A DNA stretch of 64,000 nt from Spirogloea muscicola (Eukaryota; Streptophyta; Zygnematophyceae; Spirogloeales; Spirogloeaceae). Within the stretch, counting starts at the first letter, position 1; every line of letters starts with the position of its first letter. The stretch spans positions 630,391 through 694,390 of the forward strand of contig WELB01000015.1 in NCBI GenBank assembly GCA_009602725.1. Reading direction: 5' to 3'. Under the pieces are notes generated by a model. It was not told the DNA's origin and ran no database searches. It saw only the letters and a list, made by a program, of their open reading frames with translations. Position numbers and translations under genes: made by a program. Positions 24,920-63,696 of the stretch are shown piece by piece.

Positions 24920-24963
24920 AAGCGGCCCCGCGCAGCTGCGGCGGCTGCGAGCTCGGGCGCGCG

Positions 24964-25009
24964 CTAGGGTTAGGGTGTAGGATTGAGGGGGGTTTAGGGT
25001 GAAGGGTTG
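24964..25009. repeat. Telomere-like tract upstream of the UBL start
   Basis: Plus-strand CTAGGGTTAGGGTG...GGTTTAGGGTGAAGGG, that is, C-rich CCCTAAA variants in the sense direction of the minus-strand UBL gene. It begins 45 bp 5' of that gene's ATG and lies between it and UXS. Confidence 0.85.
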
Positions 25010-25723
25010 TAGAGGTGGGCCCATTCTCTCCCTCATCTTCCCTCCCTCCCTCCCTCCCTCCTCTCTCTCTCATCTTGCAGAGGAATGCTTGCGTGAGAGT
25101 ACTCAATCGAATCACATAGATGTAGGAGTTCTGGAGTCCGCTGCATCACTGCCGACAGACAGCCAGTCAGCATCTCTCTGGGCTGGCCACCCCTTTTACC
25201 ACCTCGGAAGTCGTCGTCTATCAATTGGCGCTTCACCCCCCCCCCAGTGCTGTTGGCGGAAAGGACTGAATCAGCGTGCATTAGGAGCTTGCATTAGGCT
25301 GAGAAGCAGCTCGACCAGGTCGACTCCGGTCGACTGCCGGGACACAAGAGTCGTTGAGAACAGCCCTCATTTATATGTGTGGACTTGGGGCAGCCTCCAC
25401 AGTGTGATTCGGGCAGTGGCTGATAAATCAGAGACACGTGTAGCACTGTCGCAGGGCCAGTCTGTCACAGTCATTGTGTGCCCAGACGGGATCCCTGGTC
25501 GCAGATGACAGGAGCTCACCGCAGGAGCCTGAGTCCAGGACTCCTAGATTCAGACATGTCGCAGCTCTCGCCAGAGTTCTCACTCCACAACTGGGATCAG
25601 CTGCCATTCCGATCAGGGACTTACAAACTCAGATTTGTCCACGTCTTTGAGTGACCATATCTTCTTGCCATCGGAAAGATTGGTGATTCTTAACAGCACA
25701 CTCTGTCCTTGGTTGCCCATCAG
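25010..25723. other. 5' region of UXS, first exon not found
   Basis: A pyrimidine-rich tract (25,023-25,072) ending TCATCTTGCAG could be a 3' splice site for an exon at 25,081. The sequence after it does not encode the expected glycine-rich NAD-binding start of UXS. A hairpin-module remnant (GGGCTGGCC) lies at 25,180. No other gene is seen. Confidence 0.4.
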
Positions 25724-28700
25724 GTCATTGTCGCAGACAACTACTTCACAGGCAGCAAAGACAACCTCAAGCGGTGGATCGGCCACCCAAACTTTGAGCT
25801 TATCCGGCATGGTGAGGAGACATCTCCCATTATGCTAAGTCAGAAGGAAATTGTGCGCAGAGACGACTTTCTCCATTGAAGTCCCTTAACATTTGTCAAG
25901 ACTTGAGTTGATTTGCACGTCAGCCAAGCTGACTCATAGGCTTTCATGACTTTCAATTAGCACAGGCCCTTTCCATCACATTCGCGCTCATTGAAGCAGA
26001 CGCAGATCATCCAACAATCTCCGTTCTGCATAGTCACTCAATGCAATGATCCAAATTGCAGATGTCACGGAGCCCCTCCTCGTAGAGGTTGACCAAATTT
26101 ACCACTTGGCGTGCCCTGCCTCTCCCATCTTCTATAAGCACAACCCTGTCAAGGTACAATCATTCTGCCTCCTCAATCAGTCATCCCTACTTCTCAGAGA
26201 GACCCATGGGGACCTCCCCCTGAGACACGGACATATCTATTTTCCTGGCATGTACGGGGCAATTGAAGTTTGTGCTTGACTTTTAGGCAAAGTTACAGGC
26301 TTGGAAGGTGAGCTTATGGATGTTAGGGGCCATCTAAGGGGTGCAGCACTCTTTTCTCAAAGCTATCCACCGTCTAACCTTGGCTGTTGGCTCTGACTTT
26401 CAGACCATAAAGACCAACGTGATGGGCACTCTCAACATGCTTGGCCTGGCAAAGAGAGTGGGTGCTAGGTGACAAGCAGCTCCATTCCACAGTTACATTC
26501 ATTATCTTCGTAAAACTTCTACCAATTCTCAGCTCCGCACACCATGTCCTGCTCAGTCTGTTGCCTTGTGCCTTCAATCACAGAGTAAGGCGCAAAGCGG
26601 TCAGCCTTGAGTCCTTTTGTAATTAGCCAGCTTCACTTGGCTGCACAGGATTCTTCTGACATCCACCTCTGAGGTTTACGGTGACCCACTCGAGCACCCT
26701 CAGACGGAGGAGTACTGGGGAAACGTCAACCCCATAGGTAATCTCCTCTGCTCCGCACCTTAACTGTTGGGCCTCTGTTGACCTTACAGACTAGTCTTGA
26801 TCCATAGCATAGAAGGGCACCGCCCCACTGAAGTGGCGTACTTGACAAGACAGGTGTGCGCAGCTGCTACGACGAGGGGAAGAGGGTTGCTGAGACACTT
26901 ATGTTCGACTACCACCGACAGCACGGCATTGGTAGGTTGTTGGTCTAACCCCTGTTTATTTGCTACTCTCTTTGTAGTGCTCTGTAGCTGCACGCAGTGA
27001 GTAAATAGTCAGCTTGCTCCATAATATATATACTGTGCTCTGTCAACTGCATGCTTAACTTTCGGCTACTTGAATTAAGTCTGCTTGAGTGGCTGGGAAG
27101 GAGAGGTTGAGAGGTTGCCAATAATCTCCGCTTTTATTGTCCTCTCTATAAATTGGCCATGCACTCTAGATATTGCTCGGTGTTGTAGAGGAGGTGATAT
27201 CCCTATTAGCTCCTGACAAGGAAAAAAATTTGATGCCCATCAGAGATCAGGGTTGCTCGCATCTTCAACACCTACGGCCCTCGGATGAATATTGACGACG
27301 GCCGCGTTGTCAGCAACTTCATTGCGCAGGCACTAAGGTGAGAGGCATGGTGACTCGAGCAAGCAGCCTGTCAGCTCAGCAATAGCGCATAGCCACCGAG
27401 GTGGTTGCTTGCTCGGTGATCGTTTATCCAGGGCTGGTAGACAAGTAATCTGTAATTACTCAATCTCCTCCAAGCAGACAAGCAAAGTTGTCAAAGACCT
27501 TGTGCTTAGACCCTTATTAAAGTATAGCTACTCAGGGTTGTCATTGAGAGGGATCCAGCAGTGACTTGATGGGAAGCACCTTGATTCGTGTTTCACTTCA
27601 GAGGCGAAGAGTTGACAATTCAGGCACCTGGGACACAGACACGCAGCTTCTGCTACGTGTCAGACATGGTGGGCAGCATCCCCTAACTTGACAGATCAAT
27701 ATCTCTTACTGTGCGTGTCACTCAGCTCAATCTAGTTGCCTTTCTCCTCCACAATCTCAAGTGAAGTTGGTGGGAACACCCCATCTGCCATACTTTTTGG
27801 TGACGCACCCGCATGTCCTCGTAGGTTGACGGACTCATGAAGCTCATGAGGGGTGATCACACCGGCCCAATCAACATTGGAAATCCAGGTCTGTCCTCAA
27901 AGTCATGCCCACCATGCAGACTGGTGTTTGACCATAAGCAAGCAGGAATTGAAATGGGGGACAATAGGGAATGGCGAGAAAGCAATTCATAGAGCAGGCA
28001 TACTGCAGTCAAGACGGGACCAGAATTGTGGGTCAGTCTGCACCATTTAGTTCTTTCATCTATGCTCATGAACCTCCTCCACATTACAATTGCTCCTGCC
28101 TCCAGGTGAGTTCACGATGCTGGAGCTGGCGGAAGCTGTCAAGGATGTGAGTAATCTGCGGCCAACTATCAGAGCTTCCAAAGCCTTTCCTTTTATTGAA
28201 TTCCAAAGCCAAGGGAAAATGCAGGGAAAGTTTGTGCCGTAAAGCATTTCATGGCCAAATGCGTGGCAAAGGTCTGCATGCAAGTTTGAGGTCTCCTTTT
28301 AATGTCAAGCATCGTTGAATCTTGAGACCTTGACTCGGCGTGCATGGACCTCAAGTAAAGTTGCAACAAAAAACTCTCGATGTGTGCAGCTGGTCAAGTC
28401 TGATGCTGTCTTCAAGACCGTGGAAAACACTCCTGATGACCCCCGGAAGCGAAAGCCCGACATCACAAAGGCGAAGAAGTTATTGGGCTGGGAGCCTAAG
28501 GTATGGACTTGATACTGCCCAAAAGGCTTGATCATTTATAACTTGGCCATAATCAAATATATTTTGACCTGTAGCTGTGTTTATGTAGATCATTAATGTG
28601 GAAAGAGAAAGTGTGCATGTTACTTGTGCTTGAATATAGAATTGCCAAGCGCTTGAGATTGGCTCTGTGCATCTTCTGATGCCGCCCTGTGGAACTTCAT

Positions 28701-28781
28701 TGCCAACAGGTCACATTGCGGGAGGGACTTCCCCTGATGGCCGAGGACTTCAGGTCACGGCTCGAGGTGTCTGGGAAGTAG
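25724..28781 (+). CDS. UXS: UDP-glucuronic acid decarboxylase (UDP-xylose synthase)
   Basis: Converts UDP-glucuronate to UDP-xylose using bound NAD+, supplying xylose for cell-wall and glycoprotein synthesis. Eleven phase-matched exons: 25,724-25,811; 26,062-26,153; 26,404-26,468; 26,649-26,737; 26,854-26,931; 27,244-27,337; 27,602-27,668; 27,825-27,888; 28,106-28,146; 28,390-28,500; 28,710-28,781. They give 286 residues that follow the family almost without gaps: [48 protein letters not shown] (catalytic Thr/Ser region), [11 protein letters not shown] (catalytic YxxxK), [30 protein letters not shown]. The N-terminal 25-30 residues with the GxxGxxG NAD motif are not found between the UBL gene and 25,724. 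They may lie in the gap, or the copy may be incomplete. The gene is convergent with DPH7, with stops 610 bp apart. Confidence 0.95.
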
Positions 28782-29390
28782 GCCAGGTGTAGCACAGGTA
28801 CCAGCTGCTCGACTGAGCGCACGTTGTAGACTAGGTAACTTTGTTAGAGATTCTGCTGGCCAAGGGCCTGTGCTTGGGCGCTGAGGTCCGAGCAGGCAGA
28901 GCGCCACCATCTGCAGGCTGTGCACTGCTACCAGTGGCCACAATTCTTTGGGTGAGAGCGCGACAAAGCCTGCAGGCAGGGGCTTGGGCTCAGGCACCAT
29001 GTGTGCAGGTGACGATCTTGACCGAGTTGTGAAGGTTGCCGGCGTTCCGGGTTGGATGTCACTTTGGATTTCGACGATGCTGCGCTTCTTATTGTGAAGC
29101 CCTGAACAAGCCATTAGTGAAGCCACCCTCTTCATACTCTTCACGTTTCTATTCCCCATGGTAGCCGCAAAGCTTTTACGGGTTTGCATGTACACCACTT
29201 CGTTGCCAGTTCTGTGCAATGGCGAGCTCACAACCAATCCTGCATCTGCCATATCCAAATTCCCTGCCACACTCTTTCTGAAATCTCGCCATGTGTAGCA
29301 AGCCCTGTCCCGCCTTCCACGGCCTGACTTGTGGACAGGCTCGTCCCAAGCACAAGCCAGGTCTTGTAGGAACTGTTGGTGGTTGCACAG
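28782..29390. other. Intergenic between convergent UXS and DPH7
   Basis: Holds both 3' untranslated regions. A 171-codon minus-strand frame (28,755-29,270) is present but shows no domain and overlaps the end of UXS, so it is not called. Confidence 0.6.
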
Positions 29391-31283
29391 TCATGTGTGA
29401 AGCCAGGCAACGGTGTGTGGCTCCCAGAGGTGGAGCGCACGGTCGTAGAATGAACTCGTTGCGATGAGGCAGCTTGCCTTGGCTGGGACCGGTTGCTCGT
29501 CACTAGCAGGGACTTGTGGGGCCTCTGGTAACAGTCCTTGGTACCAGTCAGCACCGTATGCGAGTGACTTGTGCTCTGTGTAGGTCTCAGTGACCGTCCC
29601 GTCGCGCAGGACTGCAAAGCCCGCATGCATGCCGCGACAAGGAGCAGCGACGTGTCCCTCGGGTGCCACCGGAGCCGCCATGCGCCGCCGCCGAGCGCCG
29701 TGGACTGCACCAGCGTCGGTGCTGATGGCCGCCTGACGTCGAAGTAGCGCACCGCCTCGTCGTAGCTGCCAGTGGCCACGACGTGCTCACGCAGTGGGCT
29801 GCTGCGTATGCTGCCACAGCAGGTTCGTCGTCCACCGCAAGCATTGCCTGCTGTCAGCAGCTGCGCCTCATGTCTATCGCCCAGCCCTGACACTCAACGC
29901 TGCCCTGGATAACACGTAGACCTTCTAAACCCATAGCATCTGGAGATAAGTGTACTGTGCCCAGTTGCTCAGGTTGCTCTTTAAAGTGGATTACAGGCCG
30001 TGATGCAATGCCCATAATGAACTCCATCAGTAAGTGCTGCAAAGCTTGGGTGGAGGGCAATTACCTGCAGACTCCAGCGGAGTGAGAGGTGGCATCAAGG
30101 AAGGCTGGGCGGCTGGTGGGCGCGCGCAGGTCCCACGCGCAGAAGGAGCAGTCGTCGGAGCCGCTGCGCATGTCAACGCTTCAGAGCCTGTTCCAGCTGA
30201 CGACTTTGCTGGCGCAAAGTGGGCTGTCGCATCTTGAGATGATAACTCTGGTCAGAACAAGGCAATTGCTGCAGGAGCGGGCTCCGTGCTTCTCACGGAA
30301 TCTCATGTGTGAGCCATAGTTGTCTTAATATTTATCTAATGATCTTCAAGACTTGTTCTTATACACAATCGAATGTTCCTAATTACACACTCAGGACTAC
30401 AGGACTTATTAAAGGGTCCTCAGACCTCACCTGTACAAGACTTGAGGAGACCAGAGGTCGTGGGCGGCAGCCCAAACCTCGTGGCGGTGCGCCGCCCACG
30501 ACCGGTGCGCAGTCGGGCTGCCGCAGCCAACGTCAGCGACGAGGCACAGCGAGCCATCTGCGAGGCCGAGCGCGATACCGCCGCCGCGGGCTGGCTGCCA
30601 GTCCACGCAGAGGCAGATGCCGCTCGAGACCGCTAGGCAACTGTCTGGCACCAGTGCCAGTGGCGCCTCCGCAGCCTCGCCCGCTAGGTGGTAGAGGGTG
30701 AGGCAGCCGTCGGCGCCGGCCTGCGCCAGCAGCGGGCGGCCGTCGCCGGCTGCTGCAGGGCGCCATGCTAGGTCCAGGACGCCGGCTGTCTCCGCGTGGT
30801 GTGCCTGCGACGGCGGCAGAGGCTCAGGCCTAAGCTGCGTCAGCCAAGCAATGCGACTCACTACTTTTGCCATGTTCTGACGACACTAACGATTGGTAGT
30901 AACGGTTATATATGAGGAGGATCGAGGACTTGCAAGCTCCAGGAAATTCGCATGCGTGCCTGCTAAGCTTGTATGATCTGCCCTACCTGGCAGAACCATT
31001 AAGTCATCGAGAACTTAGATGGGTTATGGCAAGGAGGGAAAGGCAGGAGGAGGATGCGATACAGCCACAAAGGCTCAGTCAGGCAGACCTGGGCGAGCTT
31101 GCGGCTGCCGGGAGAGAGCTGGAAGACGTGAACGCCGCCGCGCCGCTGCTGGGGCCCGTCGCCGCCCGCCGCCTCCTCCAGCGTGTACGTCCCGGCCGCC
31201 AGCAGTTGCTCGCAGCCCGGAGTCGGGCAGAACTCGACGCAGTCCGCATTGCCCGGCAGCACGTGGACGTCAGCGGCGCGCAT
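29391..31283 (-). CDS. DPH7: Diphthine methylesterase, WD40 protein
   Basis: Removes the methyl ester from methylated diphthine on eEF2, a late step of diphthamide synthesis. Exons: 31,283-31,089 (start ...DCVEFCPTPGCEQLLAAGTY, the typical DPH7 opening); 30,834-30,431; 30,163-30,065 (GSDDCSFCAWDLRAPTS); 29,810-29,391 (REHVVATGSYDEAVRYFDVR, GGAWRLRWHP, YGADWYQG, SFYDRALHLWEPH). These WD blades match the family order. Within the last exon the frame shifts at 29,623-29,632, inside GCATGCATGC. One more ATGC unit would restore AACMHAGFAVL, the conserved sequence, and would make the summed exon length divisible by three. Either the assembly collapsed a repeat or the gene carries a real 4-bp loss. 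A telomere-like tract ends 13 bp before the ATG. Confidence 0.9.
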
Positions 31284-31296
31284 CTGCAGACCCCTG

Positions 31297-31383
31297 CCTA
31301 AACCCCTAAACCCCTAAACCCCTAATCAGAACCTAAACCCCTAACACCTAAATTTCAACCCTAAAGCCTAAACCCTGAACCCT
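31297..31383. repeat. Telomere-like tract at the DPH7 start
   Basis: CCTAAACCCCTAAACCCCTA repeats, then looser AACCCTAAAG variants, over about 87 bp. It abuts the DPH7 start (ATG at 31,283). On the gene's sense strand it is G-rich, unlike the other start-adjacent tracts. It is C-rich toward an exon-like patch at 31,390-31,470 on the plus strand (reading KAKATTAATLRRHKLESR), which I cannot assign. Confidence 0.9.
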
Positions 31384-31479
31384 GCTGGCCGACTGGCAGG
31401 CCAGAAGGCCAAGGCCACCACGGCCGCGACCCTTCGCCGCCACAAGCTGGAGTCGAGGCTTTGCGCATTCACCCCTAGG

Positions 31480-36329: not shown

Positions 36330-36591
36330 GGCGGCGCCTCTGGCACGACGGCGGCGGGGCTCGCGCTGGCGGCGGGGCAGCACTCAGTCGCCGCCCGTCG
36401 CAGCGACTGCCGAAGGCAGCTGATCGGCGGCGGCGCCCTCAGACGCCGCTGCCGCCGCTGCCGCAGCCGCCGCCGCCGCCGCGCGCCTTGCTCGGAGCGA
36501 GATCGAGGGACAGAGTCCAGAGGCCGGGGAGCGCCGCCATGGCGACGGGTCCGCGGCCCCCCGCCGGCGGCGGAAGCGCGAGCAGGGGCCG

Positions 36592-39804: not shown

Positions 39805-40567
39805 CATCGAGGACACCCCAAGTCTACATTTCTCATAGATGCCCTATGACATGACGCATGACCGGGTCGTATTCACACGATGAGATAGCCGGCGATTGTA
39901 ATGGCAACCGTGTGCACTCATTTGGACCCGTCCAACCCAGTCGGGGCTGCCTATGCTCAGACTTGCTCAGCTTGATGCTTGTGCCACATGACTTCCCGCG
40001 ACTTGGCATTTCTGTGCTGCCGGTACCAGCGACTACTGACTGCAAGTGCCTGCCTCAACGGCGATGCTGCACTCATGCGGCTGGGGTCCTGCGTCTGCAG
40101 CGGCTGTGCATCACTTTCACCTACTTTGACTTTGATGAGAGACGCAGCCCTTCCCAACGGGGCGAGGAGTGAAAACGCCAGCCCCAGGAAAGTATGTGTA
40201 TTGCCAACCCATTGTACGCCTGGTTCCGCCACCGAGCTACGACTGCGAGCTCCTGGTTTGCCAGCTGCCACTGTTGGAGCCCAAGCCAGCACTGTGCAAT
40301 GAGAGCCAGGGCTGGCAGCCACCGTCGGCTGTTCTTCTGCCGTTCTCTGCGCAGCATTCTCAGAAGCCTCTGCTACCTCTCGGGCTCCACAAGTTCCTCT
40401 GAGGCCTCACCCTTCAATCGCTGGGGGGGCGCCTATAACAGTAGCCATGAAGGACCAGGAGCTCGCACGCTAAGCCCTGCTCCGAAGTACCTGCTGCAAG
40501 CTTCACTGGGCAGGAATCGTTCGCACATCGAGGTCACATTGCAGCTGCTGCTGCTGCCGCTGCTGCC
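39805..40567. other. Intergenic between EREX-like and DPB3-like genes
   Basis: Contains the 3' untranslated region of the PX gene. No frame shows a domain. Several 70-130 codon frames are low-information. Confidence 0.5.
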
Positions 40568-40625
40568 GAAACCCTGAATCCCTTAAACCCTGAATCTGTA
40601 TCCCTTGAACTTAAACCCTGAGCCC
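40568..40625. repeat. Telomere-like tract at the DPB3-like start
   Basis: GAAACCCTGAATCCCTTAAA and similar units, C-rich on the sense strand, ending about 24 bp before the ATG at 40,649. Looser CCCTGA/CCCTAA runs occur again in introns 1 (about 41,030-41,050) and 2 (41,577-41,610) of the same gene. Confidence 0.85.
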
Positions 40626-40648
40626 CGCAGCGGCGGCAGCGGCACGGC

Positions 40649-42840
40649 ATGCGGGCCGGGCCGGCGGGCCTGGATCCGAGGCTCGCGGAGGAGGAGGAGG
40701 AGGAAGCTTCCGAGAAGGAGCAGCTGGGCGGCGGCGATGGCGGCGGCGACGGCGAGGCGGACTGGCTTGCCAGGGACGGCAGGGAGGACCGCCGGCCCGA
40801 CGGCAGCGACGAGGACGACGCCAGCGGCGGCGGCGGCGTCGGCGGCGGCGATGAGGGCTCCCCGGCCGACGCNTGCGGCGGCGGGCGGCGCGGGGCGGGC
40901 CAGCCGCCGCTGGCGCTGCCGCTGTCGCGCGTCAAGCGCCTGGTGAAGGCGCAGGGCGACGTCGCCATGGTCAGCGCCGAGGCCGGCGTCCTCATCGCCA
41001 AGGCCGCTGTGAGCGCGCTCGGCTCCTCAGCCCAAACCCTATACCCCAGACTTCGTAATACCTTAACAATCCTAGATCCTTATTGTCTATTCTGTTTCTG
41101 TAGACTGTGGATCGAATCCTTGTGGCGTCTCTGCTTACGCCACTCGCCTGCGTCCATTTACGTCCGTGTCTGACATAACCCACACTGGCTTCAGTGGCTT
41201 GAGCCACTAGAAGGACCCATGATTGTTTCTCGATTTCGCCATTGATGACTGCTCAAACCGCTACAGTGGATCATCAAGATAATGCTTGCAAATTTTCGGT
41301 ATTGGATTTGGGTTTGGAACGCCTAGGGGCGCAGGACTTCGAGCCCTGCATCTTGATGGCCATTGTGTTATCTCTCAATTTTAACATTGTGCAGTGACCG
41401 GCAGCTGGACACTGCCAGTGGGTAGTGGGCACTCTCACATTGGCGGCTCCTGGCTGCGCTGCTGCAGGAGCTATTCCTCGAGTCGTTCTCCGAGGCGGCG
41501 TACACTATGGCGCGCGCTGCCGGCTCAACTACCAATCTGACATACAAGGACCTTGGTGAGCTCCACCTCTAGCTCAGAGCCCTGAGCCCTGAGCGCTAAG
41601 CCCTCAACCCAAAAGCGAAGGCGTGTGAATGAGACGCCTCTGGTGCTACTGCTTGCTAGCCGGTCACAGTCCCATCTCCACAACAACAGCGAACTTGGTC
41701 TTCTCCAATTTGTCCAATTGTCTTCACCTGATCATTACTATCAAGGTATAAATCTAGGCTTCATGTCTGCATTGTCGGCAATCAGAAGCCAAGGGATTAG
41801 GACGCTCACAACAAGCACCTGAGTCTTGGCTTGCCAATTGTCTGTGCTTCAAGTACTGCCTCATGTTTGAGAATGCAGACCCCTGCCAGCTGTAACAATT
41901 CTACTGCACAGGAAGTACCGAAGGGCAACTTTGGCCAGACCTGCGTGCCGCTGCAGCAGTCGTGGCTGACTGAGTCGTTAACTCAGAGGCGAAAGCCTGT
42001 CCTTCAAAGACGTCTTGCCTTTGTATTGCACTTGCTGCACCTAGCCTCGAAGTGCCAAGGTGTCGTCAATGTCTGCCTGAGTTGCGGGGTGCTGGCTGTG
42101 TCGACGTGGATGTAATGGTCTGCTGTGACTCCAGTCTCTGTCTCATTTGCAGCACCGACGTTGAGATACTGGTTGCCCGCGCCCACCAGGACACCTGTGC
42201 CTCAGGCAGCAGATCATTGCACCATGTCTTGCAATGAGGTCAAGCGCAGCGAAAGCCTAGCTCGACATGCTTTCTGCAACTACAGTGTCAGCGGCAGAGG
42301 CTACTGCTGACATTCAGCTGACTGGAGAAAGGGTTGTCTTTCTTCAGACATGATCTTCATAGTCTTCGTAGGGGTTGCCAGGGAATGGTCGGTCGGCGAG
42401 GGTCCCTCTGACCAGGCCAGGAGCAGAAGCTCCACGACCATCGTGCCATATAACATGGACGCAAACTACATGACAGGAACCTTTCATGATGCTCTAAGCT
42501 GACAATGAGGTCCCTCGCACCTTTGTGTACAGCGGCTGCGGTGGCCAGCACGGAGTGCCTGGAGTTCCTCCGAGGTGAGGCCAAGCTCGGCCAGAACTTG
42601 CTTGCGGTGTAGTTGCGGCCTTGCTTTGGAGCCACTTTAGATAGCATTAAAGCCATATGAGCCATATTCAAATACACAGGGAGACCAAAATCAAAAGCAC
42701 TAATGACTGGCTATCTGGTACGCTGAGTGCCCCTGATAATGGTGAGTCTTTTTGCAGACATTGTGCCGGAGATGGTGAAGGCGTCAGCGGCGCTGGCGGT
42801 CCATGTGTCCGAGAGCAATGGGGACTTGGACGTTCATTGA
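40649..42840 (+). CDS. DPB3/POLE4-like histone-fold protein
   Basis: Ex 1 40,649-41,008; ex 2 41,468-41,555; ex 3 42,533-42,574; ex 4 42,758-42,840; 190 residues. The first 85 residues are acidic and Gly-rich, with one undetermined base at 40,873. Then comes an NF-YC/H2A-type histone fold: LPLSRVKRLVKAQGDVAMVS, EAGVLIAKAAELFLESFSEA, TTNLTYKDL, VASTECLEFLRDIVPEM. This fits the small subunits of DNA polymerase epsilon (DPB3/POLE4, CHRAC-like) or plant DPB3-1. It should pair with an NF-YB-like partner, in replication, chromatin or transcription. The four exons agree in phase. POLE4-like versus NF-YC-like cannot be settled by eye: the KDLA...STE.L.FL pattern favours the DPB3 side. Confidence 0.85.
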
Positions 42841-47000: not shown

Positions 47001-50000
47001 TTCAGTGATTTGGACTCAATGGTTGAGCCTGTTAGTCCCCGGGCGGTTGTCTTGTGGGGCGCCCGCGGTCAGGAAACGCTCGGCGGCACTGACACGCACA
47101 CGACCAAGTCGGGTGTCGCGCACCTGGGGTTTGACAACGAACTCGATGCGCTCGCAAGGCACACGCCTGTCCCATCTCTCCATGCTTTGATTCATCAGAA
47201 AGTGTGGCAACAAAGTCTGTATATCTCCAACTCTCAGTCTGTAATGTCTTCATTCTTGCAGTGTTTGGGCCACTGTGCACTTCTGGCTGAGGAACGCAAA
47301 CACGTAGCATCAGACTTGATTTGTCCTCCCACGACCTTGTGTTTTAAAATTGTCTTGTCATCTGAGGAGCTTCTTATGCAGTATGTGTGATGAGGCGGCC
47401 TCTCAGATTGAGGGACTTAGTCGACTTCCTGCCAACATCAAATCGTGCGCCCGTGCCTTGCCAACCCTGCGCAGATCCGAGGTATGCAGCTGCAAGCATT
47501 GCAACTCTATATTCTCCTGAGTAGTCCAATTTAGATTTTGGTGAATGGACATCTCTGTATGAATGCGTTCAACTCTATATTCTCCTGAGAAGTCCAATTT
47601 AGATTTTGGTGAATGGACATCTCTGTATGAATGCGTTCCACCTGCCTCTATTCACTACCATCAGCCATCACGCAATAGCATAACGATCTGCCTGTTTTTA
47701 TTTGGTGTCTTTGCACTCTGGTAAACGGTCTGGGGCCTCCGTTGGTCTTTGTGACATTGCAATGCAAAGCTGGCCTTTGTCGAGACTGCAGTGACAGGGC
47801 CCTCAACTCGCTGGACAACATCATTCCCGAGGACGCATCAGCGGCGTACGACATGCAGGACGTCCTGGAGAAGGTGCTGGCCACCCTTGCCCCCTCTGCC
47901 TACAGAGATGAAACCCAACAACAAGGCTCATGGTTTTTGTACAAATTGAAGACATATCATTACCATTATTTTTGTAACATGCATTGATGCACCTAATGCA
48001 CCACAGGAAGGCAAGTCCGCTGTAGCAGCATCATGGATGCCACAGCGTGGGCAATGCCAGCTGGAGGCACGTCGCAGCAGAGTCATACAGGACCTTACAA
48101 CTACGCTGAGAGAAGACGTTCTTAGTGTGCTCGCTGGCTGGATGTGGGAGCTGCCGCTTTTCCAGGTTGTGGACGACAGCGAATTCTTTGAGATCATGCC
48201 CGACTACGCCAAGAACATCATCATCGGCTTTGGGGTGGGCTCAATAACGCTTATTGGACGCATGCAGACAGTGACCATTATGCCGTGGAGCCTCTGAAGC
48301 CCCCAGGAGTAGCATAACCAGAAGCCTTCATTGGGCATGCATCTGTTGTGTGAAGCTGACGAGCTGTTGTCGTCGTGAAGTGACGATGCAGCGGCTGGAG
48401 GGAGCAACTGTAGGACTCGTGGCGAACCAGCCCATGGTGCAGGCAGGCTGCCTGGACATCAATGCCTCCGTCAAGGTTACCTCTGCTCCGTTGCGCTAAT
48501 GAAGTTTGGATCAGTCATACAATGCATCTTAGCTTTCACGGCCAGGGCTGGACCCCATGCTGTGCCGGCCATTTTCTAACTTGCCATTGCTACGTACATG
48601 TATAGCACTTCGTCAAAGTACTGTCAAGTACAAACAGGAGGAGCAGCCTATGTATCTTTGCTGTATTGATGGCAAACATAGATAGCAGATAGATACAGGA
48701 TGGCATATGCCGAGATCGCTGTAATCTTACTCCTCTGGGCCATAGCTGTTGCTGTTTCAATATGCTCACTAAGAAGCCAAGCATGCGCCAGGCAGATGGT
48801 AGAGACTTGGGGCTGGTGCCACCTTGCTGGGAGCTGCCACCTGATTGTTCAACCTGCTAACAGTATCACTCAGTTGGCCAAGTGTTACGATCTCAGGCTA
48901 CTCTTCTCTATGCAAAACTTCATGCGGTTGTTAAGAGCTAGCCATTGTCTGCCCATTCGCAGGCGGCGAGGTTTGTTCGCTTCTGTGACTGCTTCAACAT
49001 TCCTCTTGTGACTTTCGTGGACGTGCCGGGCTTTCTTCCAGGTGGCATACCCCACAGCTTCTTATGTGGCAGATCCACTGACTAAGACTGACAGATGTGC
49101 TGCTCAAATATCATGCAGTACCACGTGAATGGTATCTATGACCCCTCCAAGCAAAGTACTTTGTGCTCATACAAGGCCGCCTTAAGTACTGAGGCGCATT
49201 AGAAATCGGCTGAGCATGCATGCGGCGCGTCAATGCGGCGGTGCCTCCTGCAGGTCAAGACCAGGAGCATGGCGGAATCATCCGGCACGGCGCCAAGTTG
49301 CTGTACGCGTATGCGGAGGCAACGGTGCCCAAGGTCACCGTTATCACTCGCAAGGCCTATGGTGGTGCCTACTGCGGTGCACAAGCGCTGAAACCCTTAA
49401 ACCCATTACTGTGCTTCTTCTGGAAATTGATATTCAAGCATCTGTTGGACATGAGAAGAAGGTGGAAGGACAGCTTTGCTTCTCCGCGTGCCATGCATTG
49501 TCCTTTAAAAAGGCAAGGGGGTGGCGAAGCGAGGAATTTTTGCGCAACTGCTGAGTGGCTCATGGCGTACCGAAGCTGTGTGCGTGCAGTAATGAGCTCA
49601 AAGCACCTGCGCGGTGATGCAAACTTCGCATGGCCATCAGCTGAGATTGCAGTCATGGGCGCCAAAGTGAGTGCCGCTTCACCAGGGCAATCTCCACAAC
49701 TCAAGGATAGAAGTCCAGGATAAGAACTGCTGTTCTCACGGTCCATGTTGGTTGGTTACTGCCAGTGAATTACCCAGTGGTGTGTTATTTCAGATATATT
49801 GTTGACACTTCCAACATTATGCAAGCTCCACAGTCTCTGGACTGCTCATTGTCAGCTTGTCAACCAATCAGTGGTCTGTCAACTATAAAATCTGTTGACA
49901 TTTCCCACATTTTACAAGCTCTACAACCTTATCAGGACTGCTCGTTGTCAGCTTGTCAAGCTTTCAAATCTCATGCTGGTAAAATTGTTTGCTTGCTATT

Positions 50001-53930: not shown

Positions 53931-55400
53931 CGGGCACTGTTTTGTGGCCTTTGAGGCCTGCGGACACTGTCCATTCTTTTATGGGCTGGCTTTGCTAGCC
54001 CCTCTTTTTCTATGGGCGAGCCGTCCTTCATTGAGCGCCCACTTGCTGACGTCTTGGACAATAGCTTCCTGCATCTGCGCCTTCCGGCCCCGTTAGAGCT
54101 TGTACAGTCCTTTGGGCTGGCCTCTCACAGCCACTGCCTTATGTTGGAAGAGCTATTTCTTCCGGCCTAGTTCGAGACGCCGACCTGCAGTTGTTGACTG
54201 GAAGGTCCTAAAGGGGGACCTACTTCCAGGACCCTAGCCTCTCTGATTTGCGGCTGCTTAGCAGGGGTTACTGAGTAATTTGTAGCTGCTTTCTTTCTTT
54301 GTGTGCTTTGGTTTCTTAGCGCTTCCTCTGGCTTCCTCTGGCCCCCTTCTCGTTCTTTGTTCATTCTTTTTTGGGCTGGCTTGTCCAGCCCCTATCCTCA
54401 ATGGGCGAGCCCTTTCTTCCTAAAGAGAGGTGTGGTTATTGAGCGGGTCAATCTGCTGTAGGTTATGTAGATTTTTAGATGTGCTTGCCTTTGTACCTGG
54501 CCATTTGGCCTACATTTCTTTCTAATACACGATCTTTTTTAAAGAGAGAGAAGGCGCGCGGGGCGCATGAATTGAAAGGGAGGCCTAAAGCGTCCGTCCG
54601 CAGAAGTCATGACGAGTAGTTTCGTGGTCTGCGCCTCCCGGCCCTTTCCGGACCTTGTCCAGAATTCGAGCTGGCCTCTTCACGTTGCACCCTTTTGGAC
54701 TGTGCTGACCCGTGGTTACTGAGCGGGTCAGCTTAGCAGCAGGTGACGTGCGTTTGTCACGTGCTTGCCTTTGTACTTGGCCACACAGGCCCTCCATCTC
54801 TCAATACACACTCATTCCATTCTTTGAAATAGCCACTTTCTCCAGCCCTCGCCCTGTTTGGAAGAGCCATTCTCTCACAGCCATCGCCTCAGGTTGACTG
54901 AGCTGTTTTGAAGGACTCTTCGAGTAGAGGGCTATGGCTGGGCTTGGCCTGCCCAGACGAATGAATTAACAAAGTTCGAAGGAGCCAGAGAAGCGCTGAA
55001 GCACTCGGCGACGCAAGTGGCCACTAGGCACTCAATATCCCCTGTTGAGCAGCCGCAGGTCAGAGATACTAGTCTCTGGGTAGCGGGCTGGCGACTCTTC
55101 TCCACCTTCTCGAGACTCCGACCTGCATTTGTTGACAGAGTATACTGAGTGTCCATCCGGATGAGTCATGGGAGAAGTGTCGTGGTCTGCACCTTTCGGC
55201 CCTTTCGGACCTTGTCCAACTTTGGCCATCGCCTTACTTCGAGTGAGCTGTTGCCTTGCGGGACGAAGTCATTCTCAGATGGGAGCTTAGAAATCCCTGG
55301 TCAGCAATTTGGACCTGGTACATGTATTTTCGGGGCTGGCCACTCACAGCCATCATAGTTGATCGCAAGGTGATCCCATGGTCAGGTTCCTTCATATTCC
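53931..55400 (+). repeat. Repeat island incl. element A copy at 54,225-54,421
   Basis: Hairpin modules lie at about 53,982, 54,112 and 54,373. The last closes an element A copy (54,225-54,421, tail CGAGCCCTTTCTTCCT). The ATGTGCTTGCCTTTGTAC module occurs at 54,443-54,536 and 54,722-54,800, and a short repeat B core at 54,545-54,590. Minus-strand A-like sequence follows at about 55,035-55,075. A further module lies at 55,336. Confidence 0.7.
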
Positions 55401-55451
55401 TCCTCGGATCATGAATACTGAATCATCCTTTACTCATGCACGGTAGGTATC

Positions 55452-55712: not shown

Positions 55713-55965
55713 ACAGAATGTGTGACGTAGCAGCTATATTGGCCATGGTACAGGGGTGTTTCCTTTGGAAGCTTTACTGTGTCGCTAGTTGCTGGAATTT
55801 GAGTCTTTATTTGTATGAGAAAGTAAAGGTCAGGCTGAGAAAAGTCCACCAAGTTGTGACTTCCAGTTGACCAGTGAATTTACAAAGCTGAGTGCTTAGA
55901 CATTCCAAGGTCATGGTCGGTTGCTAACATAAGTAAATGCACAATTTGTGCGGATTTCTTGAGTG

Positions 55966-58464
55966 CTACTCAGTTGTCAACCCACAGCATGCTAGCGCCA
56001 ATTGAATATCTCTGGGAATACTTAACCTGAACGTGATCCTGGCATCCGAAGATGGGTGCTTAAGTGTCAGCTCCGCTGCATGCAGCGCTTGTCTCTGCAG
56101 AGGGCCCTTGCCGTCTCCACACCTCCTGATCTCCAACTCACTTGCCTCCAAGGAGAGGTACCGGATCCTAGTAGTACTTCCAACTGTGGTATGTGGTCTA
56201 CAATTTGATGACAAGTTTGGATGTAGAGGAGGCTCAGAGGACGTTGGCAGGACATTGATCAAGGATGACTGCTATCTTTCCTCCGTCATGTCGTTGGGTA
56301 TGTCCCCAGAAGTTGTAGTCTCCAAGTCAGGCCTCATCGAGGACGCAGTAGCAGGATCCCCTAGCAAGGGTCCATAGGTGCCGTCCCAGAAGAGAGGGCA
56401 GACGCCGTAGATCTCGTCGCACACAATGGGCAGGCCGACGTGCTGCAGATGCACCCGGATCTGATGGGTTCTTCCAGTGAGTAACTGAGCCTCAAGGAGG
56501 GACGTGCTGCAGGCACAACAACCCAGGAGGATGATAAGGGGACCATCACTATCTGCATAGGGCCCAATTGTGCAGACCATAAGTACTTGCAAGGGCTAGT
56601 AAGAGTATGTCAGAAGCTGCTTGCGGCAGCATGAAAGGCTTAGGTCCATGTGATGCCTTCGGTCATGCAGGGCAAATACCGCAAGAGGTATCTTAGCATA
56701 TGTGAACATCCAACACAAGTACTCAGCTGGCAGACAACAACTTGAATCATCAATGATTGCTTCTCCAGCTAGCTCAAACAATTGCGCAGGCCATATCAGT
56801 AGCGCACTCACTTGGTGCTTTGATTTGAGGAAAGCGTCCGGAAGCTTGTGATGGCTTTTTGACCAGTCGGCGAGACCTTTCGAGCAAATCGATGCTCCAT
56901 GTCTCGGCTTATTGGCGCCTCAACTTCGAAGTGAGGTCTTTCAGGTACTCCAACAACCACGACAAGGTATCGTTTATTAACCTGCAGTAACTCCCGGCAG
57001 TAACATTAAGTATTGCGCATGAAGTCAGAAATATAAGTGCAACCGGTCCACTTCACGACTTTCAGACCCCACATCAAATACATGTTGTCTACAACCTTGA
57101 TGAGTTCTATTAAACAGGAACATGTAGCTGAGCCATACTCTTTGCATGCTCGATCGCTCGACGAAAGCAGTGTGCTGACTCGTCGCATGACGTGGGGCAT
57201 ACTTGACCATCTTGGAGCTGTTGCGCAAGCGCTCTAGCCGCCATGATTGTTTTTGCAAAGCACAGAACTCCGCTTGTGTACATGTCAAGCCTATGGAGCG
57301 TGTATGGTTCCTTGCCCAGGTACCCCAGCTGCAAGTCATGCTGGCACTTAAATGAATTGACTAGTTGTGTAAGTACAAATATCCAGCCAACAACTTCGTT
57401 GCTCGTCCTGGTAGCCCACAATGCATCAATCTCACACACTCACATTGCATACATCACAACTTTCTACGCCTTTGTGATGCAGAGGACGACAAGGTGTCAT
57501 GGCAGCACACCACACGGTTTACTAGCGAGCCGCCGACAAAGCGATGGAGCGGCTCGTGCTTGATGCCCGCGGGTTTGTCCACCACCTGCCATCCTGATGA
57601 GATTTTGGAGCTGATGAGAGAAAGTTCGACTAGGAACGGGGTGAAGCCCGTTTTGCCTGGTCGTAGCACGAAGATCAGATTATTGTCAGCTAGTCGGAGC
57701 TCTGACAAGCTATCTGGGTAGCTAACCACAAACAATAAGGGTAAAAGGTCTTGGACATTGGGACTGCGACAGACATGGTGTGTTCAGCGTAAATTGCAGA
57801 CCTGCCAAAGTTCATCTGCAGATGACATTCTACCAAGCACATTGCTCCAGTCTCGCTTACTCCAAAAGAGGCCGGAGGCATTAATCTGATGGCGACTCAC
57901 GAGTACACAAGGCAGGCACGAGTGCTAATTGTCTGCTCTCACCCCTTCCTTACCTGCTCAGCTACAAGACTACTATGACCTTTGAAAATCATTAACCCTA
58001 AACACCTAACCCTTAACCTAACCCTAAGCCCTTAACCCCCCTTGACACCCTCCACCTAAAAGCTGAAATCCAGCTGCTCTCTACTCTCCAATCTTGAAGC
58101 TTTGACGATGACTCCTCTGCACCTCATTTTCTGCTGGTAATGAAGCTTCTTGCTGTGGGTCATGGGGGCTCACGAGGAGGTCATCGTCCTCGAAGATGAT
58201 GGCAAGGGGGCCACGGTCCACCACTAGCGCCGGCTTCTCCACCTTCGCTTGCAAGGAGCGCGAGCTCCTGCAAGGAGCGCCGGCGCTGCTGGGCGCCGCA
58301 GTCGTTGGGACCGCTCGGTCGGCCTCCATTGAGAGCTTCCTTTGAGACGAGAGCTGGAAAGCTAAACCCACTGCACCGCCGTGGCTGCGCAGCAGCCGCG
58401 CCACCTCCATTGGTGATGACTGCGGCAACATTTCATGGGCGAGACGTTCCCGCGAGTGGCCCAC
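55966..58464 (-). CDS. RluA-family RNA pseudouridine synthase
   Basis: Isomerises uridine in structured RNA. Exons: 58,464-58,174; 57,585-57,511; 57,328-57,203; 56,981-56,812; 56,506-(about 56,430 or later); 56,094-55,966. Parts: a 97-residue N-terminal region ending IIFEDDDLL, then [36 protein letters not shown] (the catalytic Asp is in HRLD), [44 protein letters not shown], and at the C-terminus [20 protein letters not shown] and [14 protein letters not shown]. These are the RluA motifs in order. The RNA target and organelle are unknown: the N-terminus is not a clear transit peptide. The 3' limit of exon 5 is uncertain, and an extra exon may lie between 56,430 and 56,094. Telomere-like tracts lie 41 bp before the ATG and in intron 1. 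Confidence 0.88.
57993..58040. repeat. Telomere-like tract in intron 1 of the RluA gene
   Basis: AACCCTAAACACCTAACCCTTAACCTAACCC-type units over about 48 bp, within the first intron (58,173-57,586). On the gene's sense strand it is G-rich. Confidence 0.8.
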
Positions 58465-58504
58465 GCCAAGCCTTACAGTCTGGTGAACGTCTGTGGCGAT
58501 AGGT

Positions 58505-58547
58505 CCAGGGTTTGGGGTTTTGGGAGAGGGTGTGGAGGGTTCAGGGT
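58505..58547. repeat. Telomere-like tract upstream of the RluA start
   Basis: Plus-strand CCAGGGTTTGGGGTTTTGGG and GGAGGGTTCAGGG. In the gene's sense direction it is C-rich (CCCTGAACCC, AACCCCAAACCCTGG) and begins 41 bp before the ATG at 58,464. Confidence 0.75.
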
Positions 58548-58559
58548 GCTGGCTCGCTC

Positions 58560-59600
58560 AGGTCCTTGAGTGAAATCAGAAATGTTCACGTTGCTAAATG
58601 ATGTTTCAAATTCTCTCACCGTCCATCTGCCAGAGGAACACTTAGCTTATGAGCCACTTGTACTTGTCGGACTAAGCACTCGTAAGGCGCAGCGGAAGTG
58701 ACCAACTAAAATGTCCCTTGCCACAGAAGCATGCCGCTAAATGCACAATCTCCGGACCATGAGGTCCAAGCCAGATCAAAGGCAAGCATTAACAGTACTT
58801 GAGTGCAACCCTTGAGAGGCAAAATAGCGGTGCGTGTGGAAGGGATAACGTTGTGGCAATCTGACAAACGCTAGTCCGAGGATGTATGCATGAACAACTT
58901 GCCAATGCTGGCTTCTCATTCTTGTATTTCAACTGCAGGCTTTTCAGCCATGCAGTTTGAGTGCCTTCTGAGCACCTGGCACGAAAGGCCTTACTTGTTG
59001 GCTAGCAGAAGCACCAGAGCAAGCGGCTAACTTTCACTACCCCACCTCCCTACCGTTGCCTATCCCCATGTATAGTCAGCTTATAGTTACGCTCCATGCA
59101 TGATGCTTGACTGACTCGCATATCATACCCCACTCATTGGCAGCAATTATTCTGTAATTTGGAGTCTTTTAAGGCTAAGCCATCAGAAAGCTGAAATACG
59201 AAACATTCTGATTCTATCTGAATATGTGCTTCTTAGCCGACTTCGTTGATGTCCGTGCTGCTATTGCTTTTCTGCTACTAACTATCAGGGTGACCTATTA
59301 CAAACTGCATCTATGAAAATGAGCTGCTGAATTATGCGTTGGATTCCTGCAGCCACTTTGAACCATGCCACTATCCCTTTTACTTTGACGGACTTTTGAC
59401 TTTGCACTGTGGCATTATCCTTGTAACTTTGTCATTGAATGCAACCCTTGACTTGCGTGCAAGAGCAAAGCTTCCTCTGACGAGCTCATGGTTCTGTAGG
59501 GTGCCTTCAAGCTAAGATGTGGAAAGCTATGGCAGTCAAGCGAGCAAGCAACCACTGAAGGATAACCGCCCCTAACCCCTAGACAACAGCCGCCTCTTGT
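58560..59600. other. Intergenic, nothing recognised
   Basis: AT-richer, ordinary sequence with no coding signal or repeat family noticed. A minus-strand hairpin-module remnant (GCGACAGCTGTGATTGGCCAGCCC region) follows at 59,610-59,650. Confidence 0.5.
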
Positions 59601-60176
59601 CAGAGAGAGCCTCTTCCAGTAGAGGGCGACAGCTGTGATTGGCCAGCCCTCCCTGTCAGATGGCGTCAAGTGGGCTACCTTTTTCGGCCCGCTGGGGAAA
59701 GCCGTCCTATCCGTGCAGATAGGCAGTCTGACTTATCCGGAGCACCCCCCCGAGCAAATCCCCCCCCCACCAACCCCACCCACCCCCGGGGGGGAAAGTG
59801 CACATGTCGGCTTATTTTAAGCAACCGACCTCCGCAAGCTGACCGGCCGGCTGCGCAAGCTGCCCCGCCGCGGGACGCGTCAGCCGTCAGCCGTCAGCCG
59901 TCGGTCGTCAGCCGTCAGGGCCCCGCCGCCGGGTCTCGTGCCCACGTGGCGCCGCTGGCCGCCTCAGGGCCCCGGGCGTCAGCGCTGACTCTGCGCTGGA
60001 ACACAAGGCGGGCCGGCCGGTCGGCACATTCAAAAATCGCGCGGCAGCCCGGGGGCACGTGCGGGGCGCGTGGCCGTACGGCGGCCGGCTATTACGGGGT
60101 AGACGACAGGCTGGGCCCCACGCGGGCCCCGCACGCGCGCCACGCGTCGCGCGCGCCGCGCCCCGCCGACCCCCCG

Positions 60177-60588
60177 NNNNNNNNNNNNNNNNNNNNNNNN
60201 NNNNNNNNNNNNNNNNNNNNNNNNNNNNNNNNNNNNNNNNNNNNNNNNNNNNNNNNNNNNNNNNNNNNNNNNNNNNNNNNNNNNNNNNNNNNNNNNNNNN
60301 NNNNNNNNNNNNNNNNNNNNNNNNNNNNNNNNNNNNNNNNNNNNNNNNNNNNNNNNNNNNNNNNNNNNNNNNNNNNNNNNNNNNNNNNNNNNNNNNNNNN
60401 NNNNNNNNNNNNNNNNNNNNNNNNNNNNNNNNNNNNNNNNNNNNNNNNNNNNNNNNNNNNNNNNNNNNNNNNNNNNNNNNNNNNNNNNNNNNNNNNNNNN
60501 NNNNNNNNNNNNNNNNNNNNNNNNNNNNNNNNNNNNNNNNNNNNNNNNNNNNNNNNNNNNNNNNNNNNNNNNNNNNNNNNNNNNNNNN
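60177..60588. other. Assembly gap (412 N)
   Basis: A run of N inside very GC-rich sequence, between a promoter-like stretch (59,740-60,176) and a poly-Ala coding patch. Confidence 1.
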
Positions 60589-61859
60589 GCGCCGCGGCGC
60601 CGCCGCCGCCGCCAAGCCTGGCGCTGCTGCCAAGGCCGCCGCCGCTGCCGCCGCCGCCGCCGGGAAGCGCCAGACGACCGCCGCCCCCAAGGGCTCTGCG
60701 GCCATGAAGGGCCTCAAGGTGCGGAAGCCGCCTCCGCGTCCCGCCGCCGCTGCCGCCCTGGAGGCTGCTCTGCCGCGTTCGTGGCGCAGCGGGCCCAAGG
60801 CGAGGGCCCGCTGCGCTTTTCTTGATTGAAGGTCACAGGTTCGAATCCTGTAGAGTGCGGGACTGCAGAGGGACAGCAATCGTCAGCTCCACTCGAGCTC
60901 GGCGGCCCCTAGACGGACGACGAGAATGGCTACTGCCAGGGCCCTCCGCACCACTGGCTGCTGGCGCTATCCCTGCCGCTATCACTGCCTTTTCTTTCTC
61001 TTTGACAGACACAGGCTTAGAGCCATTCGATGAGTCTGGCAAATCAAAGGAGACGGATATAAGACTGCTGCTGTCGCTTTGGTCCTGGCTCTGGCGCTGG
61101 AGCTGGCGCCAGCCCGGGCGCTGAGCTGACGCTGACGCTGACGCTGACTTTGCAAGCTCTGCCAGGGCTCGTCACCGGCAGGCGGCCTTGTGGGCACCCC
61201 GGGCGGTGGCCTCCAGGATGGGTGGGGGCGGGCATTCCTAGATGTCCTGCCGGCGTCAAGCTCGACGCCCGAGGCACGGCGGGCTGCGGCGGCGCAGTCG
61301 GACTCGGATTCGGCCAGCAATGAGCGTCGGGGCGGCCGGCGCAAGGTGCGGTACGACGAGGAGCGCGTGCACCTCAAGCTCGCCGAGATCGAGCAGAAGC
61401 TCGAGCAGGTCTGCCCGCTGTCTTTGCCGCGGCTGTCAAATGCTGCAAGATGTTGAGGGTCGTGTTGAGTTTGCTGAAGACATCTTCACGGAAAATTAAC
61501 ATCACCGCGACCCCTCCATTACTCGCAACATGCTCTTGACAGGGTGGTGTTGATGTCTTTCATCTAAATATTCATATCTGATATGTAATGCTGTGGCTGA
61601 AAGTACAGCGCAAAAGAGTGACTTAGATGCATTGCCAGGAGGGTGCCGGTTGCTCCAACATTGGGGGCGCATTGCCAGCTCTGACGCTCTGCAGTCCCGC
61701 CACGGTCTGCAGCTGCGGCGGAAGAAGGAGAAGTACAAGCGGCGGCTGGACGAGATCCAGGCGCGCAAGGAGCAAGTTGCTGGGCCCATCAAGTGGGAGA
61801 GTCCTGGGTCAGTCTCGGCCGTTGCCTCGGCCGCAGCGACCGCCAGCCCGCATGCGTGA
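60589..61859 (+). CDS. Unknown basic/coiled-coil protein (partial)
   Basis: I do not recognise this protein. After the gap a frame reads KPGAAAK-A-rich, then GKRQTTAAPKGSAAMKGLK, ending at a donor (GTGCGG) at 60,719. Two clear 3' exons follow. Exon 61,242-61,408 (after GGCATTCCTAG) reads ...RRAAAAQSDSDSASNERRGG, RRKVRYDEERVHLKLAEIEQ, KLEQ. Exon 61,695-61,859 reads SRHGLQLRRKKEKYKRRLDE, IQARKEQVAGPIKWESPG and stops. They join in phase 0 and form a charged coiled coil. Middle exons between 60,719 and 61,241 are unresolved (TGLEPFDESGKSKETDI near 61,010-61,060 is a candidate). A nuclear or RNA-binding role would fit the composition, but is a guess. Confidence 0.5.
60784..60816. other. Perfect 13-bp inverted repeat followed by TTTT
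   Basis: Arms GCGCAGCGGGCCC (60,784-60,796) and GGGCCCGCTGCGC (60,804-60,816) with a 7-nt loop, then TTTTCTT. It overlaps an A-box-like TGGCGCAGCGGG (60,782-60,793). Twenty-odd bases on is a tRNA-type T-arm with an exact B-box, GGTTCGAATCC (60,838-60,848). No full tRNA cloverleaf can be folded. Confidence 0.6.
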
Positions 61860-63477
61860 GCTACTGCCGCCACGGCCTCCGACGCAGTCGCAAATTCGAG
61901 TTCGCCGCCAGGCCGGATCCACCGTGCAGCATGCCTTGCGGCATCGCTGTTTCCTGCGGAACAACTGGGCGCTACCCGGCCAACGAGAGTCCCACAACAT
62001 GGCGGGGAGCGTCTGCAGCAGTCCTTTCTGCATACCATCGTGGATCTTCGACTTTTGCCGCAGTAGATACCAGGTGCTTGCCTGCATGAGCGCACTGCCC
62101 CAGCCTCCGCCGCTGCCCCTCAGGCGGTGGGCAGTGCGTCCATCCAGCCTCGCGCCTCCTATCTGCCTGCTGAGCAATTGCCGGGAAAACCTCGCTCTCC
62201 CCCCCCCCTTTCACAGATCCTCTTTCCCCTCCTCATTCAGCTTCTCGCATTGCTGCTCTAGGTAGTCATGATGATTCGGGTCACAATGCCTTCGTCCAAG
62301 ACCACTGTAACTGCCTAGGCTGTGAGCGACCTGATGCAATGGACAACCGAGGATGCGTGATGCCGTAGCCATGTTTGAGTTGCATTGTATTTTGGTATCA
62401 CCTGCTTATTCTGATGTCAAGAGTGCTTCAAAAGCCATCAATGTGCTCGAGTTGGGCTCATCTGCGCAACTACTCTGACATCAGCCGGTTTTTCTGGGGC
62501 GGGAAAAGAAGCCAACCCTTTCTTTGGCGCAGTAACATGATGGATGCTCAGCCACAAACCGTTTGTCTCATCGTGCGACTCCCTATTGCACAGCAAGACG
62601 CTTGTGCATGCCTTAGTGGTTTCTTGTACTACAAAAGAGCATAAAATCTTGAGCTTGTCTTCAAGCGCTCCTTGAGGTTTGTGCTTGTTTCGTTGATATC
62701 ATGTGATATTTTCCCGTGATAGTTTTCCAATATTTAAGCCAGTGTAGTCTGCTTTGCTGCATATACAGGCCACATTGTTGCAAGCTTCCTTCTCAAATAT
62801 CACAGCTGCCCACCTATTATGAACTTGCGCGGGGTTGGCCCTTTGCACGTCCTTCTACTGTGTGGCCTGCTTGTCCTCACAACTACAAATCTGAGATACA
62901 GCCAGAGGTACTTTGCAACCTCTGTGTCCACTTCCATAGGACATTTTCACAAGCGCCTGAGCTGAGTCGCACTAATGGAAGCATGCAAGACAGCACAGTT
63001 AGAGAGAGTGAGATGCCCAAGCCAATCTTCAAGGGGCTTGCGCGTGGGAATTGTTCGGCTGGATGTGGGAGGCCTAGTGATGAGAGATGCTCTTTCAGGG
63101 GAGAGAAGGCAACGGCTGCGCAATGCCAGCCCTTTGACGATGGACAAGAGAAAGAGGCGTGATTCATGAGGCAAAAGTGAGGCCACAAGCCGAGCCAATA
63201 CTTCAAGCAAAAGGTGGAAGATTAAGTGGAAGAAACCAAGAATGGCATCATACAAAGCGAAAGCCTTAAAGTAAAAAGCAGGGCAAGACTAGATAGGGCT
63301 CGTGTACCAACCGACGAATGAGCAGAAGCTCTTCCAAAGGGTGCGACAATTGTGAAAAGCCTACAAAGAAGTCGAAAGTAGAAAACGAAGGAAATGAAGC
63401 GAGTGACCGCTGCGCTGCGGTGGGCGCTACATGACCCCTTTCCAGTACTCAGGCATCGAGTAGCGACCTTTATGTAT
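61860..63477. other. Intergenic, no gene supported
   Basis: GC-rich up to about 62,170, then AT-richer. Several frames of 80-200 codons have no recognisable domain or splice support. The first 300 bp may be the 3' untranslated region of the preceding gene. Confidence 0.4.
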
Positions 63478-63602
63478 TGACCCGTGGTTGCTGAGCGGGT
63501 GTATCTGCTGTAGATGGTGTACGTCTCCAGACGTAGATGTGCTTCCCTTTTGTGCTTGGCCACTTGGCCTTTTGTTTGTTTCAAATACACGAAATTTCTC
63601 TT
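63478..63602 (+). repeat. TTTCAAATACACGAAATTT-tailed repeat module
   Basis: Contains GAGCGGGTGTATCTGCTGTA, GATGTGCTTCCCTTTTGTGC, TTGGCCACTTGGCC and the tail TTTCAAATACACGAAATTT. It matches the modules at 2,728-2,825 and 54,443-54,536, and the minus-strand fragment at 9,575-9,660. Confidence 0.75.
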
Positions 63603-63677
63603 TTCAATGGCAATCGTCTAAACGGCGGCGGGAGGTAACGGCGTTAACCGAGGTAGCCGTCGCCCTAGGCTTCGCCT

Positions 63678-63696
63678 GAAACCCTAAACCTAAACC
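63678..63696. repeat. Telomere-like motif directly 5' of an ATG
   Basis: GAAACCCTAAACCTAAACC runs straight into the ATG at 63,697. It includes an exact plant telo-box core (AAACCCTAA). Confidence 0.8.

Follow-up and report, generated by a model that had tools for sequence, protein, structure and literature searches.

Degenerate telomere-like tracts near coding edges in the streptophyte alga Spirogloea muscicola

Telomere-type motifs at gene edges are already known from angiosperms and moss (excerpts of PMC3022908 and PMC12616469). In Arabidopsis and rice, telo-boxes are raised in 5' untranslated regions and 5' flanks, in Arabidopsis also in the first two introns, and they are associated with site II elements; telomerase acting at open promoters has been put forward as a model of their origin (Gaspin 2010, PMC3022908, in excerpt). 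Here we analyze telomere-like tracts in a stretch of 64,000 nucleotides of the zygnematophyte Spirogloea muscicola (contig WELB01000015.1, positions 630,391 to 694,390 of the forward strand; hereafter the window) and elsewhere in its genome assembly, which comprises 153 Mb in 471 contigs.

The tracts resemble plant telo-boxes in being telomere-type motifs at gene edges. They differ in that the plant element is one box of 1.1 units, whereas the arrays found here span 22-98 bp, are often degenerate and in several cases intronic, and in that the sampled 264 kb show no enrichment of the exact telo-box AAACCCTA (comparison with excerpts of PMC3022908); on both strands it occurs 8 times, against 10 for the control AAACCTCA. 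Telo-boxes of moss and Arabidopsis are bound by TRB-type proteins (excerpts of PMC12616469 and PMC10167121). A Spirogloea TRB is mentioned in the excerpted part of the former and no TRB is reported for the Zygnematophyceae studied in that of the latter; binding to the present tracts is putative. As short arrays at unrelated loci they are also reminiscent of the interstitial telomeric sequences left by double-strand-break repair in mammals (PMC7215372, PMC2246262, in excerpt), from which they differ in their marked gene-edge proximity and in that no empty orthologous site was found here.

On balance, it is probable that the tracts are interstitial telomeric insertions, short and of old date, in the open DNA of gene edges, and that a few of them overlap telo-box promoters. 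A known phenomenon is thus found in a streptophyte alga as well, in arrays that are longer and older; a new promoter system is not shown. Among the matches listed in the telo-box and telomere literature on algae or Spirogloea there was no title on Spirogloea tracts. With longer, older arrays and much of its genome present in homeologous copies, this zygnematophyte is a clean system for telo-box history, in which the origin of these elements (insertion at open chromatin) can be separated from their later use as promoter elements.

Abundance and proximity to coding edges

Tracts were detected and scored by wraparound alignment to (CCCTAAA)n, and nine in the window reach a score of at least 28. 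Markov-1 simulated sequence (one strand) gave zero tracts scoring at least 24, and 264 kb of reversed real sequence (both strands) gave three of at least 30 and none of at least 40. Scores of 45-84, as at 24965, 31297, 57986 and 6442, exceed both chance controls, those of 34-38 are borderline on score alone, and those of 28-30 are near chance. Genome-wide, the telomeric 12-mer AAACCCTAAACC has 1928 matches compared with 23 for its reversed control, array overlaps and contig ends included, and many of these exact 12-mers stand at internal sites. Arrays of CCCTAAA open contigs C10 and C22 and the same unit recurs internally, that is, arrays of the organism's own telomere unit are present away from chromosome ends.

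The sample was made up of the 18 internal sites bearing three perfect units that precede contig C27 among the first 100 listed (L001-L004, L030-L043). These hold 19 tracts, or 18 tracts at 17 loci with L001 and L042 treated as homeologs. The contig-end arrays of C10 and C22, the homeolog of a window tract (L029) and the long array of C27 were left out, the last (approximately 905755-906321) being a near-perfect head-to-head arrangement of TTTAGGG and then CCCTAAA units inside the contig that is either a relic of chromosome end fusion or a scaffold misjoin. Loci L044-L050, picked for the motif ATGGCG, were kept out of the enrichment. Coding segments were predicted by a codon model trained on the 264 kb, from which random 45-bp intervals were also drawn. 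A scan in which the codon model looked for strong ATGs no farther than 60 bp away, and which 5 of the 19 sampled tracts passed, was set aside; L036 proved wrong-stranded and L033 ambiguous, and strand-specific upstream counts were therefore replaced by strand-free edge adjacency.

For ten of the 18 sampled tracts the distance to a predicted coding-segment edge is at most 100 bp, which compares with 6.8% of random intervals (p ~6e-8; 11/19 when the extra homeolog is counted). At the other two thresholds the corresponding values are 10/18 versus 8.8% and 6/18 versus 4.9%. Edge proximity was also seen for 5/9 tracts in the window and 3/4 in other sampled DNA; it extends beyond the window and includes introns. 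The original prediction, which proposed to compare distances to start codons with those of shuffled positions, was borne out in the sample as to closeness to coding edges, though neither as to start codons, which are not singled out, nor as to a consistent orientation, which is mixed.

That prediction had placed degenerate telomere repeats immediately 5' of five start codons of the window, with the C-rich strand as sense in four. All five tracts were recovered, and the four-in-five count is correct by the starts it used. The tracts are real, but the list of starts was selective. Three starts hold, those of UBL, DPH7 and the DPB3-like gene (the names UBL, DPB3 and RluA being labels of that prediction; Pfam matches are CBFD_NFYB_HMF for the DPB3-like gene and PseudoU_synth_2 for the RluA gene). 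The UBL tract (24965-25016, minus strand, score 45) has the C-rich strand as sense and is separated by 45 bp from the downstream ATG at 24919, which is present in copies on contigs C84 and C196, the C51 piece ending just before it. The DPH7 tract (31297-31383, plus, score 84) is G-rich on the sense strand and 13 bp 5' of the ATG at 31283. This gene, encoding methylated diphthine methylhydrolase (30427-31283, minus; model SM000015S01228, deposited locus s15:660817-661673), starts where the deposited model starts, and its homeolog SM000144S00702 is identical at 192/198 positions of the first exon and 13/13 of the 5' edge. The DPB3-like tract (40566-40625, plus, score 38) again has the C-rich strand as sense; 23 bp separate it from the downstream ATG at 40649, which is kept in both homeologs.

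The remaining two starts fared less well. At RluA, position 58464 is a GTG codon and the frame agrees with the homeolog (one was read) only from the ATG at 58410, so that the C-rich-sense tract (58507-58547, minus, score 36) lies 97 bp, not 41, from its start. The short tract at 63675-63696 (plus, score 34) is flush with the ATG at 63697, a doubtful start: six other copies show local matches only from points 6-29 bp 3' of it, and in L056, the one of those copies that was read, the tract is not present. Four of the nine tracts had been omitted altogether. These are 6442-6529 (plus, score 64), which is assigned to no gene and has two adjoining open reading frames (ORFs) without Pfam match; 57986-58038 (plus, score 58), in RluA intron 1 and G-rich on the sense (minus) strand; and two weak ones on the plus strand, 41025-41080 (score 28) and 41580-41614 (score 30), which begin in introns of the DPB3-like gene, 16 bp into intron 1 and 24 bp into intron 2, respectively. 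Three window tracts are accordingly intronic; splice sites were read by eye, including the DPB3-like donors GTGAGC at 41009 and at 41556.

Age of the tracts and change between homeologs

Large segments of the genome occur in further, diverged copies, which fits the triplication that S. muscicola has reportedly undergone. Comparison with the homeolog on C144 shows the DPH7 tract identical at 79/87 positions and its upstream flank at 197/217, both 91%. The RluA 5' tract has 27/41 identities (66%) with neighbors at 83-89%, and its C144 copy has faded to a score of 15, inside the shuffle range. The RluA intron 1 tract has 41/53 (77%), its homeolog copy still scoring 57, compared with 158/191 and 99/121 (82-83%) in neighboring non-coding DNA. 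No extra conservation between homeologs was found at the DPH7 and RluA tracts. The DPB3-like tract occurs in 3/3 copies (scores 37, 38 and 67) with length changes, many gaps and identities of 76-81%, while the partly coding block just downstream is 94-98% identical. Four UBL copies were compared; their tracts score 39-45, are flanked by a GGCCCA block on one side and by a conserved block close to the ATG on the other, and share 80-84% identity as opposed to 91-96% just downstream.

By a substitution-only simulation, tracts of 51-63 bp that score 37-45 have decayed by about 25-30% relative to a perfect array. Homeolog identity of 81-83% implies roughly 9% change per lineage, and most of the decay would therefore predate the triplication. 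Judged from these alignments, the DPH7, DPB3-like and RluA tracts appear older than the triplication and change as fast as, or faster than, adjacent DNA. Those tracts that could be dated have the appearance of old insertions undergoing drift and not of a functioning promoter system.

Two further observations concern these copies. The 5' part of UBL with its tract (24831-25071) has a 100% identical copy of 241 bp on C61, and the C144 match to the UBL 5' region covers only DNA upstream of the tract. In the DPH7 homeolog, a small inversion (L029:2569-2824 versus window 30570-30810) may explain its truncated gene model.

Insertion, promoter elements and other readings

Under the insertion reading, telomerase or the capture of telomeric DNA would add TTTAGGG repeats at DNA breaks; such breaks would fall in 5' and intronic DNA that is open, transcribed and tolerant of insertions, and the inserted repeats would afterwards decay, with length changes. 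A minority probably overlaps the ordinary TRB-bound telo-box promoter element of plants, for example the UBL tract, which adjoins a site II-like element, and the telo-box of L046/L050. Several observations weigh against insertion as a general account. It is something we infer and have not seen, since no empty orthologous site was found and all four homeologs read (one of DPH7, two of the DPB3-like gene, one of RluA) carry the region. The UBL (4/4 copies) and DPB3-like (3/3) tracts stay telomere-like despite sequence change, which could reflect constraint, and at L046/L050 a single telo-box and the ATG lie inside more than 80 identical bases of loci otherwise 82-83% identical, where a functional element is likely from this pattern. 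A Pfam-supported neighbor is lacking at ten of the 17 sampled loci. The coding-segment predictor can pick the wrong strand, as at L036, so that adjacency to an edge is better established than the side or the orientation. Finally, pyrimidine/purine tracts (7/35) and GGC repeats (9/43) are also raised near edges, albeit less, and part of the edge effect is thus general to simple repeats; at the strictest threshold the difference of the telomeric tracts from GGC vanishes (p 0.32; 0.048 for the other control).

The last point bears on a deflationary reading, that any simple repeat gathers at GC-rich gene edges and that the tracts before ATGs were merely picked out. In its favor are those control repeats, the failure of the RluA start with the doubt over 63697, and the omission of 4/9 window tracts from the original list. 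At the middle threshold, however, telomeric tracts are nearer edges than pyrimidine/purine and GGC repeats (Fisher p 0.013 and 0.014), and their excess over random positions holds outside the window too; coincidence is a decidedly doubtful explanation. Spread inside a dispersed repeat or mobile element carrying telomeric repeats seems hardly credible. Several dispersed repeats do occur in the window, and the identical UBL copy on another contig includes the tract; against this, the tracts adjoin unrelated genes, and comparison of tract loci with the window, setting aside the homeolog pairs L001/L042, L046/L050 and L029/window, showed no common stretch longer than 80 bp spanning the sampled tracts.

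The most serious competitor, which we nevertheless hold to be rather unlikely, is that the arrays are working telo-box promoter elements of the AAACCCTA type, to which TRB-type Myb proteins bind in order to bring in chromatin regulators or clear away nucleosomes, with selection for telomere-likeness instead of exact sequence. The UBL tract has the site II-like sequence TGGGCCCA at its upstream end (25016-25023, minus), and GGCCCA is present in all four aligned copies; site II is spelled TGGGCY. Motifs of this type lie within 150 bp of 17/32 tracts, compared with 33% of random intervals. The persistence of the DPB3-like tract in every copy, the conserved run of L046/L050 and the mention of a Spirogloea TRB point the same way. 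Set against them are the equal conservation of DPH7 tract and flank, the faded RluA 5' copy, the lack of telo-box over-representation, and two further results. Eight contexts are intronic, by eye (two in the DPB3-like gene, one in RluA, the intron at 92482 in flanking DNA, and L004, L036, L041 and L043), two of them with near-chance scores and one without Pfam match, and intronic contexts are at least as frequent as starts. Moreover, ATGGCG within 25 bp was matched exactly 12 times after C-rich, 5 times after G-rich and 9 times before C-rich motifs; of the 12, one overlapping pair lies at the C10 contig end and another pair consists of the homeologs L046/L050, leaving about ten independent, and there is no clear excess just after tracts over just before. 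A CCAT control (418 matches) was set aside because the tract's own CC yields CCAT by one change. The promoter-building system of the original prediction is thereby disfavored, starts not being singled out, while its alternative of insertion at open promoters fits better in view of the edge proximity. Both ideas had already been published for land plants (excerpts of PMC3022908).

Orientation, neighboring exons and other repeats

Among sampled loci before coding segments, 9 are G-rich and 1 C-rich on the sense strand (L035 entering on both sides of the count), a count that includes one homeolog pair and the wrong-stranded L036; in the window and flanking set the ratio is 1 to 4. A G-sense orientation rule was rejected on this disagreement and orientation is treated as mixed. 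It is improbable that telomerase repeatedly heals breaks in transcribed DNA with the G-rich strand pointing, in its 5' to 3' direction, at the nearest exon. TTTAGGG is on the sense strand before exons at DPH7, L004, L031, L035, L041, L043 and L001/L042, and CCCTAAA just after donors at L036, in the intron at 92482 and for both weak tracts in introns of the DPB3-like gene; such a rule can hold only in part, because the 5' tracts of UBL, the DPB3-like gene and 63675 run the opposite way. If true genome-wide, the tracts would be a fossil record of the DNA end extended by telomerase at transcription-linked breaks.

Pfam-matched exon neighbors were found at 7/17 sampled loci: a GluRS/GlnRS-type catalytic exon (tRNA-synt_1c, L031), an ABC2_membrane exon (L043), an LSM exon (L004), a UPF0176_N gene (L001), a tRNA_anti-codon OB-fold exon followed by the tract (L036) and, just under the cut-off, an Elongin_A-like start 21 bp from the tract (L035) and an AAA_26 exon behind the tract-containing intron (L041). 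At the latter locus, a complete intron made of the tract was ruled out, the tract lying inside a longer intron of ~165 bp (by eye). A scan of 30 further ORFs, those of L003 and L034 standing outside it, gave two matches above the cut-off; the readings as Pta, LSM7, AspRS, ABCG, exonuclease and response regulator were made by eye.

Other repeats of the window comprise a dispersed element of ~150 bp at 63450-63600, with 35 matches listed elsewhere at 79-88% identity (1674 first-look candidates for the whole query), and a dispersed repeat of ~82 bp with eight window copies, including 24079-24163 and 54338-54419, which the DPH7 homeolog L029 also contains as an additional segment. A 68-bp tandem duplication with 98% matches occupies 47502-47638, and a perfect (CT)n repeat of 47.5 copies lies at 5459-5553.

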